A stretch of DNA of 12,297 nt. Origin: a candidate division Zixibacteria bacterium RBG_16_43_9 (lineage in GTDB: Bacteria > Zixibacteria > MSB-5A5 > RBG-16-43-9). Position 1 is the stretch's first letter. Every line of letters begins with the position of its first letter. The position numbers and the translations under genes were made by a program. Positions 3,175 to 12,297 of this stretch are shown in pieces. The notes beneath the pieces were generated by a model. It was not told the origin of the DNA. It saw only the letters and a program-made list of their open reading frames with translations, and made no database searches. The stretch lies in contig MEWM01000105.1 of NCBI GenBank assembly GCA_001775355.1, positions 1-12,297 on the forward strand, given 5' to 3'.

Positions 3175-6099
3175 ATGTTCTGGAGAAAGATTCAGTTTTT
3201 AGGTTTTGGGGCTTTGCTAGTTGTTTTTCTTTTTAACTTTTCTTCTGGTGCGCAGCCGGTCCTGGTCAAAATCGACCTTAAGACGGCAAAGGATTACCAG
3301 TTAGCAGCCGAAGCTGGGCTAAAAGCTTTTGTAAGACTGGATAAAGCTTATCTGGGTGAAATCGAGAAAGATAAGATCGAAAAATTAGAGTTTGCTAAAA
3401 TTCCTTACCAGATTATAGATGAAACTCCCTGGACCCAGGAATATTTCCTGGTCACAAAGTCTTTATTTAGAACGAAAGTAAATCTTTCAAATTACGGGCA
3501 GGTTTTATTAGATGAGGATGATTTAACCTTACTGAAAACTGATCAGAACAAAGCTCTGGAGCTTCTTAATTTCGGGTATCGTCTGACCAGGGTTACTCCA
3601 CAGGTTATTCCTTTGAAATACACTCCTCCTCCTTCACCTTCCATTCCGGTCTCATCCTATTCTCCGGAAAGAGACACTCTGGTTGGTCAGGTTTCCATAG
3701 ATTCTTTGAGGTCCTATCTGTTAAAACTGCAATCTTTTGACACCAGATTTGTTTATTCCGATTCGATTGTGAAAGCCCGGCACTGGCTTTATGATAAGTT
3801 TAAAGAGTTCGGGATCGATAGCGTTTATTTCTATCCTTTCACCACCTGGGATTGGTTCATAGAAGGTTGGCTACAGGATTCTAATGTGGTGGCAGTAATC
3901 CCGGGGACAGTTGCTCCGGATAAAGTTATTGTAGTAGGCGGACATTACGATTCTGTGAACTGGGGCATGTGGAATTTTAATGATCCAGCACCGGGAGCAG
4001 ATGATAATGGCAGTGGAACTGCGGCTACTTTAGAGATAGCCAGGCTATTAGCACATCGTCCTTTATCAAAGACAGTTATCTTGATGCCATTTGCGGCTGA
4101 GGAGCTTGGTCTTTACGGAAGCTCGGCTTATGCCTGGGATGCGGCTTCTCAAGGGAAGGATATTCAGTTGATGATTAATTTTGATATGATAGCTCACTGG
4201 CCAAACTCAACTGAAATGAATATCCATACAGACCTCCCTTCTCTGCCTTATGCTTTACTTTTAACCCAGATGGCAGGTTTATATACCAGCCTCACTCCTC
4301 ATATATTGGGGAATTCATCCAGCAGTGATAGCTGGCCCTTTTCTCAGGTAGGGTATAACATCATATACAGTGCTGAACGCATCTTCAGTAATAACTGGCA
4401 CCAACCTACAGATTCTGTATCTTATACGAATATCCCTTATATGAGCCAGATCGTCAAAATGAACTTAGCTACTTTAATCGAGGTAGCAGAGTCTCCCGGT
4501 CCAGTTGAGAGCTTGCAGGTAGTGGATGCCGGAGATGGAGAAAAGCTTTATTTAAGCTGGGCTCCTTTGCTGGAAAATAACCTGGTTGAATACAAGGTGT
4601 ATTATGGCACGCAGAGCGGGGTTTATACTGATACCCACACTGTTCCTTTAACCATCAACTCAGATACATTGCGAAATCTTCAAACCGGGGTGCCTTATTA
4701 TATGGCTGTTACAGCGGTGAATAATTTAGGTAAAGAAAGTTTTTACAAAATAGAGATTGTAGGCACCCCACATGCAATCCCACAGGCACCTTCAGGGCTT
4801 ACTGCCCAGACTGGCTATTTCAAGATAAACTTATCCTGGCAGCCCAATCAGGAGGCAGACCTTGCCTACTATAAGGTTTATCGCAGCACCACTTCCGACT
4901 CAGGTTATGACAGTATCGCTACCGGGATAAAGGGTCTTTCCTATCTGGACAGCACTGTCCAGGGAGGTTGGTATTATTATTGCGTAACCGCAGTGGACAC
5001 TTCAGGGAATGAGAGCAGTTTTTCGCCAGAGGTGAGGATGATCGCCATCACCTTAGATCAGGGAATCCTGGTAATAGACGAGACCGGCAACAGCATGGGA
5101 AATCCTCCTATGCCCTCCAGTGATTTTCAGCAGGACAGTTTATATTCGGAGCTATTTTCCGGGTATCAGGTGAGTTTTTATGAATATACCGAAATCTCCA
5201 CCCAGCCCTCGATCATCGACTTGGGCCCTTATTCGACAGTGGTATGGCTGGATGATGATTTTCAGATCTTCAATTTTGTAACGGATAAAGATGATAACCT
5301 GATAAAGGAGTATTTGGGGTATGGAGGCAGGTTTATCTTATTTAGCTGGACTGGTTTAAGGAGGTTTGCGGGAACTTTGCCCAAGCCATTTTATCCGGGT
5401 AGTTTTGTCTATGATTATCTGCACATAAGCTGGGCAAATGAGAACCCTGTAAACGATTTTGCCGGAGCTTTTTCCTATGACACTTTATTTTATCCGGAGA
5501 TTGAATCAGACACTTTGAAATATATAAGCGACTGGCAAGGTAGATTAAAGTATGTGAATATATTCAACTTGAGACCTGGAGCGCAAGCGTTATATTATTT
5601 TGATTCCTATTCGGATAACCCGGCTTATGAGGGTAAGGTATGCGGTTTGAAGTATGATGGCACCGATTACAAATTAGCCTTTTTTGGGTTACCCTTATAT
5701 TATCTGGAAGCACCGGGTGCAAAGGAAATGGTAAGGTCATTGATGAGGGATTTTGGAGAGCCATTGGGGGTGGAGGATAATCCTTCTGCAGCTCTGCCAC
5801 AGAGATATGACCTTGCGCAGAACTACCCGAATCCGTTTAACCCTTCCACCACCATACCCTTCCAAGCCGGTAGCAGGAAGCCTGGAGCTGGTAGACCCAG
5901 CCACACCACCCTGAAGATCTACAACATCCTGGGGCAGTTGGTGAGGACACTGGTGGATGAGGAAAAAGTTCCAGGAAACTATAAAGTCATCTGGGATGGG
6001 AAGGACAATTTGGGCAAAGAGGTAGGAAGCGGGATATATTTCTACCAGTTAAGAACTGAGGAATACACAGCTACTAAGAAGATGGTTTTGTTGCGGTAA
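3175..6099 (+). CDS. Secreted M28 zinc peptidase with FN3 repeats and a C-terminal sorting domain
   Basis: 974 residues, exported. The signal peptide covers about 1-26 (WRK, hydrophobic core, SSGA before Gln). A propeptide-like region follows. The M28 domain (about 180-440) shows all the co-catalytic zinc ligands: His257 in GGHYDS, Asp276 in PGADDNGSG, catalytic Glu309 and ligand Glu310 in AAEELGLYGS, Asp337 in NFDMIA, and His409 in WHQPTDS. Two fibronectin type III domains follow (about 443-533 and 536-620), then an alpha/beta domain beginning ILVIDETGNSM (about 628-865) resembling the ThuA/GATase-like modules in such proteins. The end (883-974) is YPNPFNPSTT, then IYNILGQLVRTL, WDGKDNLG and GIYFYQL, the FlgD-Ig-like/type IX-style sorting domain of FCB-group bacteria. 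Likely an extracellular aminopeptidase or related enzyme held at, or released from, the cell surface. Start fixed by AAGGAGG 6 nt upstream. Confidence 0.9.
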   Translation: MFWRKIQFLGFGALLVVFLFNFSSGAQPVLVKIDLKTAKDYQLAAEAGLKAFVRLDKAYLGEIEKDKIEKLEFAKIPYQIIDETPWTQEYFLVTKSLFRTKVNLSNYGQVLLDEDDLTLLKTDQNKALELLNFGYRLTRVTPQVIPLKYTPPPSPSIPVSSYSPERDTLVGQVSIDSLRSYLLKLQSFDTRFVYSDSIVKARHWLYDKFKEFGIDSVYFYPFTTWDWFIEGWLQDSNVVAVIPGTVAPDKVIVVGGHYDSVNWGMWNFNDPAPGADDNGSGTAATLEIARLLAHRPLSKTVILMPFAAEELGLYGSSAYAWDAASQGKDIQLMINFDMIAHWPNSTEMNIHTDLPSLPYALLLTQMAGLYTSLTPHILGNSSSSDSWPFSQVGYNIIYSAERIFSNNWHQPTDSVSYTNIPYMSQIVKMNLATLIEVAESPGPVESLQVVDAGDGEKLYLSWAPLLENNLVEYKVYYGTQSGVYTDTHTVPLTINSDTLRNLQTGVPYYMAVTAVNNLGKESFYKIEIVGTPHAIPQAPSGLTAQTGYFKINLSWQPNQEADLAYYKVYRSTTSDSGYDSIATGIKGLSYLDSTVQGGWYYYCVTAVDTSGNESSFSPEVRMIAITLDQGILVIDETGNSMGNPPMPSSDFQQDSLYSELFSGYQVSFYEYTEISTQPSIIDLGPYSTVVWLDDDFQIFNFVTDKDDNLIKEYLGYGGRFILFSWTGLRRFAGTLPKPFYPGSFVYDYLHISWANENPVNDFAGAFSYDTLFYPEIESDTLKYISDWQGRLKYVNIFNLRPGAQALYYFDSYSDNPAYEGKVCGLKYDGTDYKLAFFGLPLYYLEAPGAKEMVRSLMRDFGEPLGVEDNPSAALPQRYDLAQNYPNPFNPSTTIPFQAGSRKPGAGRPSHTTLKIYNILGQLVRTLVDEEKVPGNYKVIWDGKDNLGKEVGSGIYFYQLRTEEYTATKKMVLLR

Positions 6100-6896: not shown

Positions 6897-6908
6897 ATTA
6901 ACTGGAGT

Positions 6909-6944
6909 AAAAATTACGCCATAGGCAGATCTGCCTATGGCGTA
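6909..6944 (-). terminator. Perfect 30-bp palindrome, probable terminator of the glutamate dehydrogenase operon
   Basis: TACGCCATAGGCAGA (6915-6929) is exactly the reverse complement of TCTGCCTATGGCGTA (6930-6944), with no spacer. On the - strand the palindrome is followed by A and then five T (6913-6909), about 50 nt beyond the stop of the last glutamate dehydrogenase gene. On the + strand no T-run follows, so it should act on the - strand transcript. Confidence 0.65.
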
Positions 6945-6955
6945 GCTTTATCAGG

Positions 6956-6973
6956 GTAAACCTAAAGGTTTAC
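6956..6973. repeat. GTAAACC-TAAA-GGTTTAC hairpin
   Basis: Perfect 7-bp arms (6956-6962 and 6967-6973) with a TAAA loop. An outer pair TGGAGT (6903-6908) and ACTCCA (6974-6979) encloses both this hairpin and the 30-bp palindrome, so 6903-6979 may be one compound element. Confidence 0.55.
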
Positions 6974-6994
6974 ACTCCAACTATATAATCTGTC

Positions 6995-8257
6995 TCACGG
7001 GAAGATCCCGCGTCTTTTATATACTCTTTCCAGCCGACTTAGCGCCGATGCATAAGCCGCAGTGCGCAAATCGGCTTTCAGCTCTTTTGACTTATCAATC
7101 ACCAGATTATAGGCACTGATGATTTTGGTGTGCAGCTTGCTATCCACTTCCTCCAGCTCCCAGAACTCGCTGCGTTTGTTCTGGAGCCATTCGAAGTAGC
7201 TGACTATCAAACCACCTGAGTTACACAGGATGTCAGGAATCAGATCGATACCTTTTTTACGGAGTATCTGGTCTCCTTCCGGATCAGTCGGTCCATTGGC
7301 TCCTTCAGCCAGCAGCTTCACGTTTAACAAAGGTGCGGTTTCGGAATTGATCTGATTTTCCAAAGCAGCAGGTACGAAAATATCGGCTCTGGTTTGGAGA
7401 AAGGTCTTGTGGTCAACTGATTTTGCCTGAGCATAGCCGGCGATTTTGCGATTCTTTTTGACGTATTCGCATAAATCATCGGGATCTATACCCTCCGGAT
7501 TGAAAATTGCGCCGGTAAAATCCTCAACTGCAATTAACCTGACACCAAGCGGTTTCAAGAGACGTGCTGTCCAGGAGCCAACGTTACCGAATCCCTGGAC
7601 AATGTAAGTGGCTCCTTTCAGATTGAAGTTCTTCTCCTCTGCCCACTTCTGCACTAAAAAAGCAATTCCCTGACCAGTAGCTTTATCTCGTCCCTGGCTC
7701 CCACCGGATTTTATAGGTTTACCAGTGACCACATGTTTACAAGCCTGGCGCTTATGAGGGGGCATAGTTGACAAATAGGTATCCAGGATCCAGGCCATAA
7801 TCTGGGAGTTGGTGCCGACATCCGGTGCGAGAATGTCATACTCCGGGCCAATATTATTTCCCAGGGCAAAAGTGAAACGGCGGGTTATTCTCTCCAGGTC
7901 GTTGAAAGTGTATCTGGTAGGGTCAAACTGAATTCCACCACTGGCTCCTCCAAACGGTATATTGGCTATGGCTGCTTTCCAGGTCATACAGTTAGCCAGT
8001 ACCCGTACCTCTTCAATTCCGAGGGTAGGATGAAAGCGTATTCCCCCTTCAAAAGGCCCCATAACATTGTTATGCTGTACCCGGTAACCGGTGAACATCT
8101 CGATCCGTCCATCCTCCATCTTCACTGGAAAGTTGATTGTGACCTCGTTGATTGTCTTGGTCAGAATGCTGTGGATATACGGGTCCAGTGAGATCAGGGT
8201 AGCGGCCTGGTTAACATGCTCGACCACATAATCGCAAAAACTTTTTTGTTTTGGCAT
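6995..8257 (-). CDS. Glutamate dehydrogenase paralogue lacking two active-site lysines (probable regulatory subunit)
   Basis: 420 residues, full length for the hexameric Glu/Leu/Phe/Val dehydrogenase family, and highly similar to the gene upstream (8291-9571). Retained: Lys94 (MTWK), Asp146 (APDVGTN), the dinucleotide motif GFGNVG (222-227), and Ser353 in GGLIVSYFEW. Lost: the substrate lysine of GPxKGG is Glu70 (GPFEGG), and the catalytic lysine of GGAKGG is Ser106 (GGASGG). In Clostridium symbiosum numbering these are Lys89 and Lys125, the latter essential for deamination. The reading frame has no stops or frameshifts. I infer a catalytically poor or dead subunit that assembles with the intact paralogue, as in the GdhA/GdhB hetero-oligomer of Thermus thermophilus. 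No Shine-Dalgarno precedes the ATG. It is 33 bp from the upstream gene, so translational coupling is likely. Confidence 0.88.
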   Translation of the reverse strand: MPKQKSFCDYVVEHVNQAATLISLDPYIHSILTKTINEVTINFPVKMEDGRIEMFTGYRVQHNNVMGPFEGGIRFHPTLGIEEVRVLANCMTWKAAIANIPFGGASGGIQFDPTRYTFNDLERITRRFTFALGNNIGPEYDILAPDVGTNSQIMAWILDTYLSTMPPHKRQACKHVVTGKPIKSGGSQGRDKATGQGIAFLVQKWAEEKNFNLKGATYIVQGFGNVGSWTARLLKPLGVRLIAVEDFTGAIFNPEGIDPDDLCEYVKKNRKIAGYAQAKSVDHKTFLQTRADIFVPAALENQINSETAPLLNVKLLAEGANGPTDPEGDQILRKKGIDLIPDILCNSGGLIVSYFEWLQNKRSEFWELEEVDSKLHTKIISAYNLVIDKSKELKADLRTAAYASALSRLERVYKRRGIFP

Positions 8258-8290
8258 AATTTTTAGGTTAAGTTGATTTCTTTGTTTTTA

Positions 8291-9571
8291 TCATGGGAAA
8301 ATCCCACGTTCTCTGTAAACTGTGTCCAGATGTGACAAAGCCACGATATAGGCAGCCGTGCGCCAATCAGTTTTATATTCTTTTGCCGTATCGCGCACCC
8401 GTTCATAAGCGCTGACAATCTTTCGATGCAGTTTAGTGTCCACTTCCTCCAGTTCCCAGAATTCACTCCGTTTATTCTGGAGCCACTCGAAGTAGCTGAC
8501 GATCACGCCACCGGCGTTGCAGAGTATATCCGGAATCAAATCTATCCCTTTCTGCTGGAGGACCTGGTCTCCGTCCGGGTCAGTGGGTCCATTGGCTCCT
8601 TCAGCCACGAGCTTCACATTTAGCAAGGGTGCAGTATCAGCCGTGATCTGGTTTTCCAGGGCAGCCGGAACAAAGATGTCTGCCTTAGTCTGGAACAGGG
8701 TTTTGCGGTCGATTGGCCTGGCTTTAGGATACTCGGAAATCAGCCCGTTATTTTTCTTAGCATAAGCTATGAGGTCCTCGGGGTCGATCCCTTCTGCATT
8801 GGCAATTGCTCCGCTGGCATCCTCGACTGCAAGTAATTTTGACCCGTGCTGTTTCAGGAGAAGCGCAGTCCAGGAACCTACATTTCCGAATCCCTGAACC
8901 GTGTAAGTGGCTCCTGCTAAATTAAAACCTTTATCCCTTGCCCATTCCTCAACGGTGTAGACTACTCCCTGACCAGTTGCCTTGTCACGGCCCAGGCTTC
9001 CCCCGGACTCGATCGGTTTTCCGGTAACCACGTGGATACAGGCCTGTCTTTCGTGTGCAGGCATGGTTGATATATAGGTGTCCAGAATCCAGGCCATTAT
9101 CTGGGGATTGGTATTCACATCCGGCGCGGGGATATCGTACTCCGGTCCGATGTTGTTTCCCAGAGCGAAAGTGAACCGGCGGGATATCCTCTCCAGTTCG
9201 CTTTGCGAATACTTGAAGGGGTCACACTGTATCCCTCCCTTGGCACCGCCGAACGGAATGTAAGTCAAGGCGCTCTTCCAGGTCATCCAGGTAGCAAGTG
9301 CCCGGACCTCATGGATGTCAACTGCCGGATGGAAACGCAGTCCGCCTTTGAAAGGACCCAGAGCGTTGTTGTGCTGGACCCGGTAGCCGGTGAACATCTC
9401 TATCCGGCCATCATCCATCTTGACCGGAAAATTCACAATGATCTCATTGGTTGTTTTCCCAAGGATCTTGCGTATATCCAGGTCAAGCTTCATCAGATCT
9501 GAGGCTTTATTGAATTGCCAGACCACATTTTCATAAACGTTTCCCCTTTTCCCAACTTCTGAATCTGTCAT
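8291..9571 (-). CDS. gdhA: Glutamate dehydrogenase, catalytic subunit
   Basis: 426 residues. Catalyses reversible oxidative deamination of L-glutamate to 2-oxoglutarate and ammonium, a cytoplasmic link between carbon and nitrogen metabolism. All family active-site residues are present: Lys75 (GPFKGGLRF), Lys99 (MTWK), catalytic Lys111 (IPFGGAKGG), Asp151 (APDVNTN), Arg195 (SLGRDKATG), the Rossmann motif GFGNVG, and the Ser of AGGVIVSYFEW. The second Rossmann strand ends AVED; the acidic residue suggests NAD(H) preference, but this does not decide it. It is first in a two-gene operon whose second member is a paralogue without two of these lysines. Start supported by AAGGAG (9577-9582 on the - strand) 5 nt upstream. 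Transcribed from the promoter at 9641-9669. Confidence 0.94.
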   Translation of the reverse strand: MTDSEVGKRGNVYENVVWQFNKASDLMKLDLDIRKILGKTTNEIIVNFPVKMDDGRIEMFTGYRVQHNNALGPFKGGLRFHPAVDIHEVRALATWMTWKSALTYIPFGGAKGGIQCDPFKYSQSELERISRRFTFALGNNIGPEYDIPAPDVNTNPQIMAWILDTYISTMPAHERQACIHVVTGKPIESGGSLGRDKATGQGVVYTVEEWARDKGFNLAGATYTVQGFGNVGSWTALLLKQHGSKLLAVEDASGAIANAEGIDPEDLIAYAKKNNGLISEYPKARPIDRKTLFQTKADIFVPAALENQITADTAPLLNVKLVAEGANGPTDPDGDQVLQQKGIDLIPDILCNAGGVIVSYFEWLQNKRSEFWELEEVDTKLHRKIVSAYERVRDTAKEYKTDWRTAAYIVALSHLDTVYRERGIFP

Positions 9572-9619
9572 ATTAACTCCTTAAATATCAGGTGTCTGAT
9601 TTATCTCCATATATAAACA

Positions 9620-9688
9620 AATGCTTGACGAGTATCAGCGAATATATATAAGCTGAATTTACTCGTCAAGCATTAACTTTTCAAGCAT
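9620..9688. promoter_or_regulatory. Long inverted repeat overlapping the glutamate dehydrogenase promoter (candidate operator)
   Basis: AATGCTTGACGAGTA (9620-9634) is the exact reverse complement of 9660-9674. A smaller pair TCAGC/GCTGA (9635-9639, 9652-9656) lies inside, leaving an AT-rich centre. Arm centres are 40 bp apart, near four helical turns. A third half-site TCAAGCAT recurs at 9681-9688, 15 bp from the one at 9666-9673. Symmetry around a promoter suggests a dimeric regulator. The hairpin could also end the transcript of the Cys-rich gene upstream. Confidence 0.6.
9641..9669 (-). promoter_or_regulatory. Sigma-70-type promoter of the glutamate dehydrogenase operon
   Basis: On the - strand: TTGACG (9669-9664), 17 bases, TATATT (9646-9641), each 5 of 6 to consensus. 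Initiation near 9634 gives a leader of about 60 nt. The -35 box lies in one arm of the inverted repeat and the start point lies in the other. Confidence 0.7.
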
Positions 9689-9721
9689 ACTAAACAACAG
9701 GGAAATTCTGGTTTAGCGAAT

Positions 9722-10060
9722 TTAAATATACTCCTCACATCTCCAGACGCCAGTTTCCGGTTTTGGAAAGATGCAGGTTGCGCGGTTTTCACAATTAATG
9801 CAAAGCCCTTTGAGCGAGTTCATCTTCTCAGGCCTGGATTCGGCCTGGGTGCGAGCAATGGCAAGAATTTTATCTACTGTAGTTCTCTCCATCGGCGTTT
9901 CATAGCAGTCAAACTCTTCACACTGCAATACCGGCTGATCCAAATTTCGCGGGTATATACAGGTGGAAGCATTCTGACAGGTCAGGCAAAGCCCGGTATA
10001 TTCCCGTTTCTTAGTGACCGGACTTACTTTCTCCATTACTTTGGTTGAGCGTTTAGACAT
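9722..10060 (-). CDS. Small protein with duplicated Cys-x2-Cys-x5-Cys motif
   Basis: 112 residues, no signal peptide or membrane segment. Two copies of one motif are visible: GLCLTCQNASTC, 12 residues, CEEF, and at the C-terminus GLCINCENRATC, 11 residues, CEEYI, i.e. GLC-x2-C-x5-C-x11/12-C-E-E. The linker holds a further Cys in CEEFDCYE and a helical stretch (TVDKILAIARTQAESRPEK). The four-Cys units look like small metal-binding knuckles (zinc or iron-sulphur), but no function is established that I know of; I have seen similar GLC..C motifs in uncharacterised proteins of anaerobic bacteria. The start chosen is the ATG at 10060 because AAGGAGG lies 8 nt before it. A TTG 17 codons upstream has no such site and overlaps the sigma-54 promoter. 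It is likely controlled by sigma-54 and perhaps by the adjacent NtrC-type regulator. Confidence 0.8.
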   Translation of the reverse strand: MSKRSTKVMEKVSPVTKKREYTGLCLTCQNASTCIYPRNLDQPVLQCEEFDCYETPMERTTVDKILAIARTQAESRPEKMNSLKGLCINCENRATCIFPKPETGVWRCEEYI

Positions 10061-10106: not shown

Positions 10107-10122
10107 AGCAAACTCCGTGCCG
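10107..10122 (-). promoter_or_regulatory. Sigma-54 (-24/-12) promoter of the Cys-rich gene
   Basis: On the - strand the sequence reads CGGCACG, GAGT, TTGCT, against the consensus TGGCACG-N4-TTGCW. GG (10121-10120) and GC (10109-10108) are exactly 10 bases apart, as required. The predicted start is near 10096, giving a leader of about 36 nt that includes the Shine-Dalgarno. Only the first T of the consensus is missed. Confidence 0.75.
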
Positions 10123-10321: not shown

Positions 10322-11680
10322 TCACATAAAGCCATTCAGAGGTGGTATCTTCTGTATTTTTTCTCTAAGGGTTTTTCGATCGATCCCCAGAATTTGAGCA
10401 GCTTTAGTCTTATTTCCATTTACGCTCGCCAGCACGTTACGAATATATTCAGCTTCGACTTCAGCTAAGGTCCGGTTCAGTCCCGCAACCCTTTGTGCAG
10501 AGAAACGCATTAGCGAAGGGAGATCAGGAACGTCTATGGTATCGCTGTCAGTCATCAACAGCAGGCGCTGGATCACATTCTCCAGTTCCCTGACATTCCC
10601 GGGCCAGTCATAGGTCTTAAAAGCCCGGAGCACTTTCTCCGTGAAACGGGGAATCGGTTTGGAAAATTCTTTGGCAAATTTAGCTGAGAAGTGATTAGTA
10701 AAAAGAACAATGTCGTCTCCTCTTTCACGCAGGGGTGGGATCGCAATGCTGATGACGTTTAGCCTGAAGAATAAGTCCTCACGAAAGACTTCTTTCTCCA
10801 GTAATCTAAGTAAATCCTTATTGGTTGCCGCTAAAATCCTTACATCTACCTTGGTGGGATGAGTGGCTCCGACCATATAAACTTCCTTGTCCTGCAGAAC
10901 GCGAAGAAGCTTCACCTGCATCGCCAGACTGGTTTCGCTGATCTCATCCAGGAAGATTGTACCTCCATCTGCGGTCTGAAAAAAACCAGCCCTGGAATCG
11001 GTGGCTCCGGTGAAAGAGCCTTTGACATGTCCGAAAAGCTCGCTTTCCAAAAGCCCTTCAGGAATCCCCCCGCAGTTCACCGGGACAAATGGAGCTGAAG
11101 CACGCGAGCTGCTATAATGAATTGCCCTGGCAACAAGCTCTTTACCAGTGCCACTCTCTCCGGAGATCAACACAGTAGCTGAAGTCGATGCCGCTTTGGA
11201 GATTGCATCAAAAACTTTAAGCATCGCCCCGGATTCGCCAATCAAGCCATGCGGGGCTACGGACCTCGAAGGTGTTCGGTTGCGTGCAGCTCTGCGAGAG
11301 TGTAATTTAGCCAACACCCGCCTTACTGCAGAGAAAAGCTCTTCGTCGGTAAACGGTTTGGCAAGGTATTCTTCAGCCCCGATCTTAATAGCCTTGACCG
11401 CTCCTTCGATCGTAGCATAACCGGTGATCATCATCACTTCAGTGTCTTTGAGATTTTCACGGATATGTCTCACCAGGTCTAATCCGCTCACCTTAGGCAT
11501 CTTGAGGTCAGTTATAACCAGGTCCACCGGAGTTGACTCTAAAATCTTAATCGCCTGCGCCACATCCGGGGCAGTATATACCTGATACCCCTGGGAGGTC
11601 AGTTTTCTCTGAAGCAGTTCCAGAGTATTCGGAGTGTCATCTACGACCAAAAGACTCTCTTTTTTGGAATCAGGAGTCAT
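10322..11680 (-). CDS. NtrC-family sigma-54-dependent response regulator
   Basis: 452 residues in three domains. Receiver (about 10-125): acidic pocket DD at 14-15, phospho-acceptor Asp58 in ITDLKMP, Thr of MITGYAT, Lys108 in AKPF. AAA+ sigma-54 interaction domain (about 146-375): Walker A GESGTGKE (174-181), sigma-54 loop GSFTGA (221-226), Walker B TIFLDEIS (241-248), and NWPGN-type YDWPGNVRELENVI. Fis-type helix-turn-helix at the C-terminus (NGNKTKAAQILGIDRKTLREKI). The sigma-54 loop has Ser where most members have Ala (GAFTGA), a known natural variant. It works in the cytoplasm, driving open-complex formation by sigma-54 polymerase once phosphorylated by the kinase encoded one base upstream. 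The nearest target seen is the sigma-54 promoter of the Cys-rich gene. Confidence 0.94.
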   Translation of the reverse strand: MTPDSKKESLLVVDDTPNTLELLQRKLTSQGYQVYTAPDVAQAIKILESTPVDLVITDLKMPKVSGLDLVRHIRENLKDTEVMMITGYATIEGAVKAIKIGAEEYLAKPFTDEELFSAVRRVLAKLHSRRAARNRTPSRSVAPHGLIGESGAMLKVFDAISKAASTSATVLISGESGTGKELVARAIHYSSSRASAPFVPVNCGGIPEGLLESELFGHVKGSFTGATDSRAGFFQTADGGTIFLDEISETSLAMQVKLLRVLQDKEVYMVGATHPTKVDVRILAATNKDLLRLLEKEVFREDLFFRLNVISIAIPPLRERGDDIVLFTNHFSAKFAKEFSKPIPRFTEKVLRAFKTYDWPGNVRELENVIQRLLLMTDSDTIDVPDLPSLMRFSAQRVAGLNRTLAEVEAEYIRNVLASVNGNKTKAAQILGIDRKTLREKIQKIPPLNGFM

Positions 11681-11681
11681 A

Positions 11682-12297
11682 TTATTTGCTCTCCTTTTTT
11701 TCTGGACGGATTGTTATGGGAAATCTGATTTCAAAACGCGAGCCAGCACCGATTTTACTCTCTACCTTGATAACCCCTTTGTGTGAGCTGACTATTCCAT
11801 GAACCACAGAAAGTCCCAGTCCAGTTCCTTCCCCAACTTCCTTGGTAGTAAAGAATGGTATGAATATCTGTTTCATAATCTCCTCGCTCATACCTATGCC
11901 AGTGTCTTCTACGATCAGAGAGACATAGGCTTGATCAGACAGTGTCTTTATAGTCAGCTTCCCTCCATTCGGCATAGCCTGGATAGCGTTTACTACCAGA
12001 TTAACCAGAACCTGATGCAGTTGGGCTGGATCAGCCGTGATTTCCGGCAGGTCAGTCGAAAGTGAGCGCACCAGCTCTATTCCTTCCTGCGCGCATCTGG
12101 ACTCAAAGAAATAAAGCCCTTCTTCGACGATAAGGTTTAAATTAACCCTGGTTTTGGTAGTTGGCATCTGCCGGGCGAATATCAATAACTTCTTTACGAT
12201 CTCCCGGGCATGAAGGGATGCATTTATTATTTTCTCTAGATCCTGAGTTACTTGCGGAGTAAGCCCCGGGACTTTAGCTGTAAGCTGAGCAAACCCC
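11682..12297 (-). CDS. Sensor histidine kinase (C-terminal part, cut by the window edge)
   Basis: 204 residues are visible, open to the window edge. The N-terminal part seen is the end of the dimerisation helix (...INASLHAREIVKKLLIFARQ), just beyond the H box, so the phospho-accepting His and the sensor domain lie outside. The HATPase domain is complete: N box DPAQLHQVLVNLVVNAIQAM, G1 DTGIGMS, F box FIPFFTTK, G2 GTGLGLSVVHGIV. This is the NtrB-like layout common for partners of NtrC-type regulators. The stop codon is one base from the response regulator ATG, whose Shine-Dalgarno (11691-11697) lies inside this gene, so the pair is translated as a unit. A shorter start at 12185 (TTG) is an internal Leu within the conserved LLIFARQ and is not used. 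The signal sensed cannot be told from this part. Confidence 0.92.
   Translation of the reverse strand, partial: GFAQLTAKVPGLTPQVTQDLEKIINASLHAREIVKKLLIFARQMPTTKTRVNLNLIVEEGLYFFESRCAQEGIELVRSLSTDLPEITADPAQLHQVLVNLVVNAIQAMPNGGKLTIKTLSDQAYVSLIVEDTGIGMSEEIMKQIFIPFFTTKEVGEGTGLGLSVVHGIVSSHKGVIKVESKIGAGSRFEIRFPITIRPEKKESK

Follow-up and report, generated by a model that had tools for sequence, protein, structure and literature searches.

Here, we analyzed a 12,297-nucleotide stretch of a candidate division Zixibacteria genome (RBG_16_43_9, contig MEWM01000105.1; "the window" below means this whole stretch), and found that it encodes a full-length glutamate dehydrogenase (GDH) paralogue, gdhX, which has lost both the substrate-binding and the catalytic lysine and lies directly downstream of an intact GDH gene (gdh). 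At the sequence level, gdhX and its relatives combine lysine loss with retention of the fold and cofactor motif, purifying selection, pairing with an intact gene and a sigma-54 two-component context. It is very likely, judging from these features, that GDH chemistry has been lost and the gene maintained under selection, and likely that it is expressed jointly with its catalytic partner. With a probability of about two in three, we consider gdhX to encode a non-catalytic regulatory or structural subunit that co-assembles with catalytic GDH; inactivity in vitro, hetero-oligomer formation and allosteric control are what we infer for such a subunit.

Loss of active-site lysines in gdhX and its clade

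The genes and sites on which this rests are as follows:

6995..8257 (-): gdhX, full-length GDH paralogue without the catalytic lysine (420 aa; PF02812 and PF00208, residues, predicted fold)
8048..8050 (-): codon GAA for Glu70, replacing the GPxKGG lysine (codon comparison with upstream gdh)
7940..7942 (-): codon AGT for Ser106, replacing the catalytic GGAKGG lysine (codon comparison with upstream gdh)
8258..8290 (-): spacer between gdh and gdhX, 33 bp (range 10-116 bp across 12 loci)
8291..9571 (-): gdh, intact catalytic GDH, 426 aa, with all three lysines (open reading frame (ORF), Pfam, alignment)

The ORF of gdhX is intact, with zero internal stops over 420 aa, and its product belongs to the Glu/Leu/Phe/Val dehydrogenase superfamily, as both domains (PF02812, 167 bits; PF00208, 232 bits) are present and together span the full protein length. 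It is 70% identical to the gdh product across 419 aa, and both GDH domains occur in each. Among the residues expected of an active GDH, the GPxKGG substrate lysine and the GGAKGG catalytic lysine are absent (gdh has AAA and AAG at these positions), whereas Lys94 of MTWK, Asp146, Ser353 and the GxGxxG motif (GFGNVG) are present. We take it from Clostridium symbiosum GDH that the GPxKGG lysine contacts the substrate side-chain carboxylate and the MTWK lysine the alpha-carboxylate, and that the GGAKGG lysine and Asp146 are catalytic. The fold of gdhX was predicted with high confidence (predicted local distance difference test (pLDDT) 95, predicted template modeling score (pTM) 0.92); an earlier model built from dead-clade rows alone was poor (pLDDT 72) and was not used. 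Both replacements and their codons, as well as the retention of fold, Rossmann motif, MTWK lysine, Asp146, Ser353 and frame, which a preliminary description of this DNA had reported, were seen again in the codon comparison and in the ORF, Pfam and residue checks. Sequencing error is an unlikely source of Glu70 and Ser106, because a separate metagenome-assembled genome (locus L004) has both residues at 96% identity and 28 of the 120 database matches listed also lack both lysines. In one further genome (G102), a contig with the same 7,492 bases as that of L004 encodes an identical protein.

Copies without the catalytic lysine, hereafter called dead, were not confined to the window. Among the best 120 of 7,995 database matches to gdhX, 28 lacked both lysines and one (P0035) lacked Lys106 only. 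A profile made from those 28 and the window protein revealed one further case (P0121) among the best 120 of 7,912 matches, so more dead copies may exist beyond those found. Dead copies were also present in WOR-3 and Stahlbacteria loci (L013, L014, L020, L029, L030 and L034), in L064, and in L166 and L167 from a search of the WOR-3 phylum; a plasmid search returned only GDHs below 60% identity.

We then compared 40 dead-clade rows with 90 intact rows. First, Lys106 was kept in none of the dead rows and in all intact ones, its place being taken by S, N, Y, A, H, T or M, and Lys70 was kept in 4/40 versus 90/90, Glu being the commonest residue there (21/40). Second, Pro143 was kept in 6/40 versus 90/90, with Leu in 31/40 dead rows, and Trp90, found in 83/90 intact rows, was Cys in 28/40 dead rows; both changes accompany the lysine loss. 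Besides positions 106, 70 and 143, the same filter passed only conservative or partial shifts (73, 79, 147 and 148). Ala95, Thr117 (Ser in most intact rows) and Ala172 were newly common in the dead clade, and additional losses near the cofactor or substrate sites affected Asn321 (9/40), Arg190 (7/40) and Thr194 (10/40). On the other hand, Lys94 (39/40), Asp146 (40/40), Ser353 (37/40), Glu245 (39/40) and the three glycines of the dinucleotide motif (40/40) were invariant or nearly so.

These columns bear on the alternative, raised in the preliminary description, of a changed reaction, in which the pocket altered by Lys70 -> Glu would act on a different amino- or oxo-acid. The retention of Asp146 and Ser353 and the frequency of Glu at position 70 would suit such an enzyme. 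However, the presence of seven different residues at the catalytic position fits loss better than new chemistry, Ala95, Thr117 and Ala172 suggest no obvious catalyst, and to our knowledge the catalytic lysine is required across the Glu/Leu/Phe/Val dehydrogenase superfamily. A changed reaction thus appears very improbable.

Pairing, descent and selection

All 12 dead copies among the 143 unique full-length GDH frames in the loci read were directly downstream of an intact GDH on the same strand (some of these loci are near-copies of one another), whereas the 117 frames without a GDH neighbor within 250 bp were all intact. Two further intact frames, in L169 and L135, had a near neighbor (31% and 43% identity, respectively) that was not counted as dead. 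The intact/dead tandem recurs in other phyla. Moreover, two of 297 sampled genomes of the Aminicenantes phylum (G307 and G337; 11 of 79 matches read) had two adjacent GDH-like genes that were both dead (L205:3697-6304 and L206, respectively): neither gene has the catalytic lysine, one also lacks Lys94, and both carry Glu at Asp146. In G307, a lysine-bearing GDH lies upstream of this pair with one 918-aa gene between, which by eye resembles a phosphoenolpyruvate/pyruvate-binding enzyme. The stretches read around the two pairs showed no kinase, regulator and Cys-rich genes of the kind described below.

In a 134-row tree, from which the three lysine columns were excluded and in which P0121 carried an intact label, all 40 dead rows grouped together (Shimodaira-Hasegawa-like approximate likelihood ratio test (SH-aLRT) 93), separate from their own intact partners. 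For a 90-row tree, 11 of the dead rows were dropped along with every second row of the single intact GDHs, four Aminicenantes-phylum rows were added and seven active-site columns were excluded. Its bootstrap had not quite settled; support was 100/96 for the dead rows of Zixibacteria, 97/91 for nine rows of the WOR-3 type and 95/84 for the full set of 29, and L064, on a very long branch, was loosely placed (80/10). One clade therefore seems to span Zixibacteria and WOR-3/Stahlbacteria, and since the dead rows group apart from their intact partners, the dead lineage probably split off before the present gdh/gdhX pairs diverged. A recent duplication within Zixibacteria was disfavored, as forcing the dead copies to join their own partners cost 47.5 log-likelihood units, with a borderline result in the approximately unbiased test (p-AU 0.051). 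A common origin of every dead copy, the Aminicenantes-phylum ones included (p-AU 0.41), and a separate origin were both compatible with the data, the branches being long.

To gauge selection, the ratio of nonsynonymous to synonymous substitution rates (dN/dS) was estimated by the Nei-Gojobori method (NG86) in sixteen comparisons. No stop was found in 11 dead coding sequences, and dN/dS across eight dead pairs ranged from 0.04 to 0.33. The values for the dead gene and its intact partner were 0.156 and 0.068 in window/L004, 0.243 and 0.108 in L014/L167, 0.139 and 0.156 in L014/L013, 0.128 and 0.101 in L167/L013, and 0.326 and 0.118 in L029/L034; in L020/L030, window/L005 and L013/L020 the dead gene gave 0.04-0.09 with synonymous sites saturated or nearly so. 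Within window/L004, 30 of 54 differences fell in the first 60 codons (window 8257-8078(-) versus L004:5001-5180), and beyond them dN/dS was 0.065 for the dead gene versus 0.073 for its partner. The divergent first 60 codons show a pattern as if exchanged by recombination.

Because dN/dS and the bootstrap intervals for three dead pairs (0.08-0.23, 0.10-0.20 and 0.12-0.78) lay below 1 and the frames lacked stops, the dead gene is under purifying selection, weaker than that on the partner in some pairs. Thus, neither a broken frame nor a dN/dS near 1 was found. Were gdhX a redundant duplicate or a young pseudogene about to be lost, this could account for the patchy distribution and the raised dN/dS in some pairs, but the absence of stops, the upper bootstrap bounds and the single clade across Zixibacteria and WOR-3/Stahlbacteria make this explanation extremely improbable. 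The preliminary description had proposed selection for a non-catalytic role and suggested looking for stops or relaxed selection among orthologues; the age of the clade, its uninterrupted frames, dN/dS values far below 1 and the invariable pairing in the loci read all agree with that proposal.

Operon context

The tandem stands at the end of a cluster in the order histidine kinase, sigma-54 response regulator, sigma-54 site, Cys-rich protein, gdh and dead gdh, of which the upstream elements in the window are:

11682..12297 (-): histidine kinase, C-terminal part, continuing beyond the window end
10322..11680 (-): NtrC-type sigma-54-activating response regulator (domains of the L014 homologue)
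10107..10122 (-): sigma-54 -24/-12 promoter-like site CGGCACGGAGTTTGCT (one mismatch to TGGCACN5TTGCW)
9722..10060 (-): small Cys-rich protein containing a pair of C-x2-C...C...C units (start taken at ATG; a longer ORF starts at TTG, 10111)
9601..9720 (-): stretch with a 15-bp hairpin between the Cys-rich gene and gdh (z -5.2)

The full one-direction cluster was found in the window, L004, L013, L014, L020, L029, L030, L034 and L064; L167 and L166 showed the part within reach of their stretches, and L005 was too short. Among 71 loci without a dead copy (L004-L083), 26 carried both kinase and regulator upstream in the orientation of gdh, one had a regulator alone, two had both genes on the other strand and 42 had neither, in some cases because too little flanking sequence was available. 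Of 37 loci, 28 contained a sigma-54 site with no more than one mismatch between regulator and gdh, and 9 of the 10 dead-bearing loci were among these; four of the remaining loci had two mismatches and five had three or four. As the window alone held 6 sigma-54-like matches with up to two mismatches where chance would give 5.0, the case for this site comes from its conservation in other loci. In Geobacter, GDH is RpoN-dependent according to an excerpt of PMC2725144, which provides a precedent for sigma-54 control of GDH.

No convincing Pfam family was found for the Cys-rich protein, which precedes gdh in several phyla. In L006 (Gemmatimonadota) and seven Aminicenantes loci (L058, L059, L060, L062, L066, L074 and L076), a Cys-rich unit precedes the N-terminus of GDH in the same frame, translation presumably starting ahead of the unit, and this arrangement ties the Cys-rich protein to GDH.

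The context also bears on whether the dead copy is a stand-alone sensor that binds nicotinamide adenine dinucleotide (NAD(H)) or an amino acid, forms its own hexamers and acts on another target, for instance the two-component system or the Cys-rich protein. The near-invariant dinucleotide motif, Glu245 and Lys94 and the adjoining two-component system are consistent with this idea. However, the dead gene was beside an intact GDH in 12/12 clade loci, the two window proteins are similar enough that they could readily co-assemble, and the two-component system also occurs beside single intact GDH genes. We therefore regard such a sensor as improbable.

Several other features were observed in and around the window. 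The arms of the strong 15-bp hairpin are identical in L004, and it might be an attenuator or operator. Two hairpins lie 3' of gdhX at 6900-6998(-), the second of which is a long perfect stem that is absent at that place in L004 and may be a recent small insertion. An M28 peptidase encoded at 3175-6099(+) carries an fn3 domain and, with a weak score, a C-terminal tail of the sorting type known from type IX secretion cargo. Just beyond the window, the same contig encodes a third GDH (G000:C105:14008-15357(+)), which is 449 aa long, belongs to a distant type and has the lysines.

A probable non-catalytic subunit and known systems

If gdhX encodes a non-catalytic subunit, it would be made together with the catalytic GDH encoded just upstream and would most likely assemble with it into a mixed hexamer, whose activity would be set by the subunit ratio. 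The dead subunit would carry effector sites at the subunit interfaces, where leucine-type site residues are kept, and its own active site would be without the lysine required for chemistry. The 70% identity, the kept fold and the Thermus precedent suggest both a shared hexamer and effector sensing. Equivalents of the leucine-effector site (Arg127, Asp159, Arg416 and Pro420), mapped with an excerpt of PMC9570180 and a bovine stretch, were present in 40/40 dead rows, and Phe419 occupies the place of a Tyr in Thermus.

Several observations weigh against this reading. First, co-assembly and inactivity are deduced from sequence rather than from biochemistry or interaction. Second, the leucine-site residues were equally invariant in the intact rows and are thus not diagnostic of a regulatory role. 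Third, several dead copies evolve faster than their partners (0.24 versus 0.11; 0.33 versus 0.12), and no obvious ribosome-binding site was seen ahead of gdhX in the window. Fourth, a dead copy was found in only 3/132 genomes of the phylum of the window (among the matches read, which included all with at least 60% identity and excluded most more distant ones), in 8/147 of the phylum of G137 (every match with E up to 1e-150 read; the match in G253 is partial, without the lysine region) and in 1/17 of the phylum of G140; as most genomes of the same phyla show none, it appears dispensable for GDH function generally. Finally, single intact gdh genes likewise occur with the kinase, regulator and Cys-rich genes, whose presence therefore says little about the dead copy.

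Two further variants deserve mention. A partner that merely fills the hetero-oligomer for stability or dosage, with no effector sensing, is a weaker form of co-assembly included in the probability given above; it fits the sequence data as well as a regulatory subunit does, but the sole precedent found, Thermus GdhA, is regulatory according to an excerpt of PMC9570180, and we consider a filler unlikely, though by no means negligible. It is also conceivable, but rather doubtful, that catalytic GDH, a pseudo-GDH with its former active site turned into an effector pocket and the Cys-rich protein, as a metal or redox component, constitute a three-part holoenzyme under a dedicated sigma-54 two-component system, an arrangement for which the literature searched gave no description. 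In that case, Lys70 -> Glu would invert the charge at the point where the glutamate side chain was bound, a change that would favor amino acids of the cationic or amide kind.

GDH joins nitrogen and carbon metabolism. The old dead lineage in Zixibacteria and WOR-3/Stahlbacteria, together with the doubly dead Aminicenantes-phylum tandems, suggests a wider occurrence of GDH control through inactive paralogues. When the dead proteins are named at all, they are annotated as glutamate dehydrogenase or Glu/Leu/Phe/Val dehydrogenase, and genome pathway counts can therefore overstate active enzymes. In the literature searched (inactive or regulatory GDH paralogues, sigma-54 control and Zixibacteria GDH, mostly by titles and abstract openings), we found no description of this lineage or operon, and Thermus GdhA was the one regulatory pseudo-subunit of GDH that came up; the kind of device is already known.

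In Thermus thermophilus, GdhA is the regulatory and GdhB the catalytic subunit, and control by adenosine monophosphate is mediated by the TTC1249 product, an inactive adenine phosphoribosyltransferase homologue (excerpt of PMC9570180). As with GdhA, a paralogous intact GDH is encoded adjacently to gdhX, and the leucine-site residues are kept in the gdhX clade (also in the intact rows). In contrast to Thermus, where gdhA comes first, the dead gene here follows the catalytic one, and it stands in a sigma-54 two-component and Cys-rich gene context. By score, gdhX was closer to GdhB (342 bits) than to GdhA (273 bits), and the GdhA structure 3aoe_E gave 273 bits with the dead copy and 263 with the intact copy. 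The comparison with GdhA/GdhB drawn in the preliminary description is apt as a working analogy: the dead subunit may work like GdhA, whether or not the two descend from one ancestor. The best-scoring solved sequence was that of Thermotoga maritima GDH (1b26, 390 bits, nearly full-length alignment with gdhX), a homohexamer that, unlike gdhX, has the lysines in the alignment. A further parallel comes from S-adenosylmethionine decarboxylase (AdoMetDC), whose enzyme and fold are unrelated to GDH. As in the role proposed for gdhX, a dead paralogue and an active enzyme are combined there: an excerpt of a study in Trypanosoma (eLife 2016, PMC5201418) describes the AdoMetDC prozyme as a paralogue without catalytic activity, which forms a pair with the active enzyme and regulates it.
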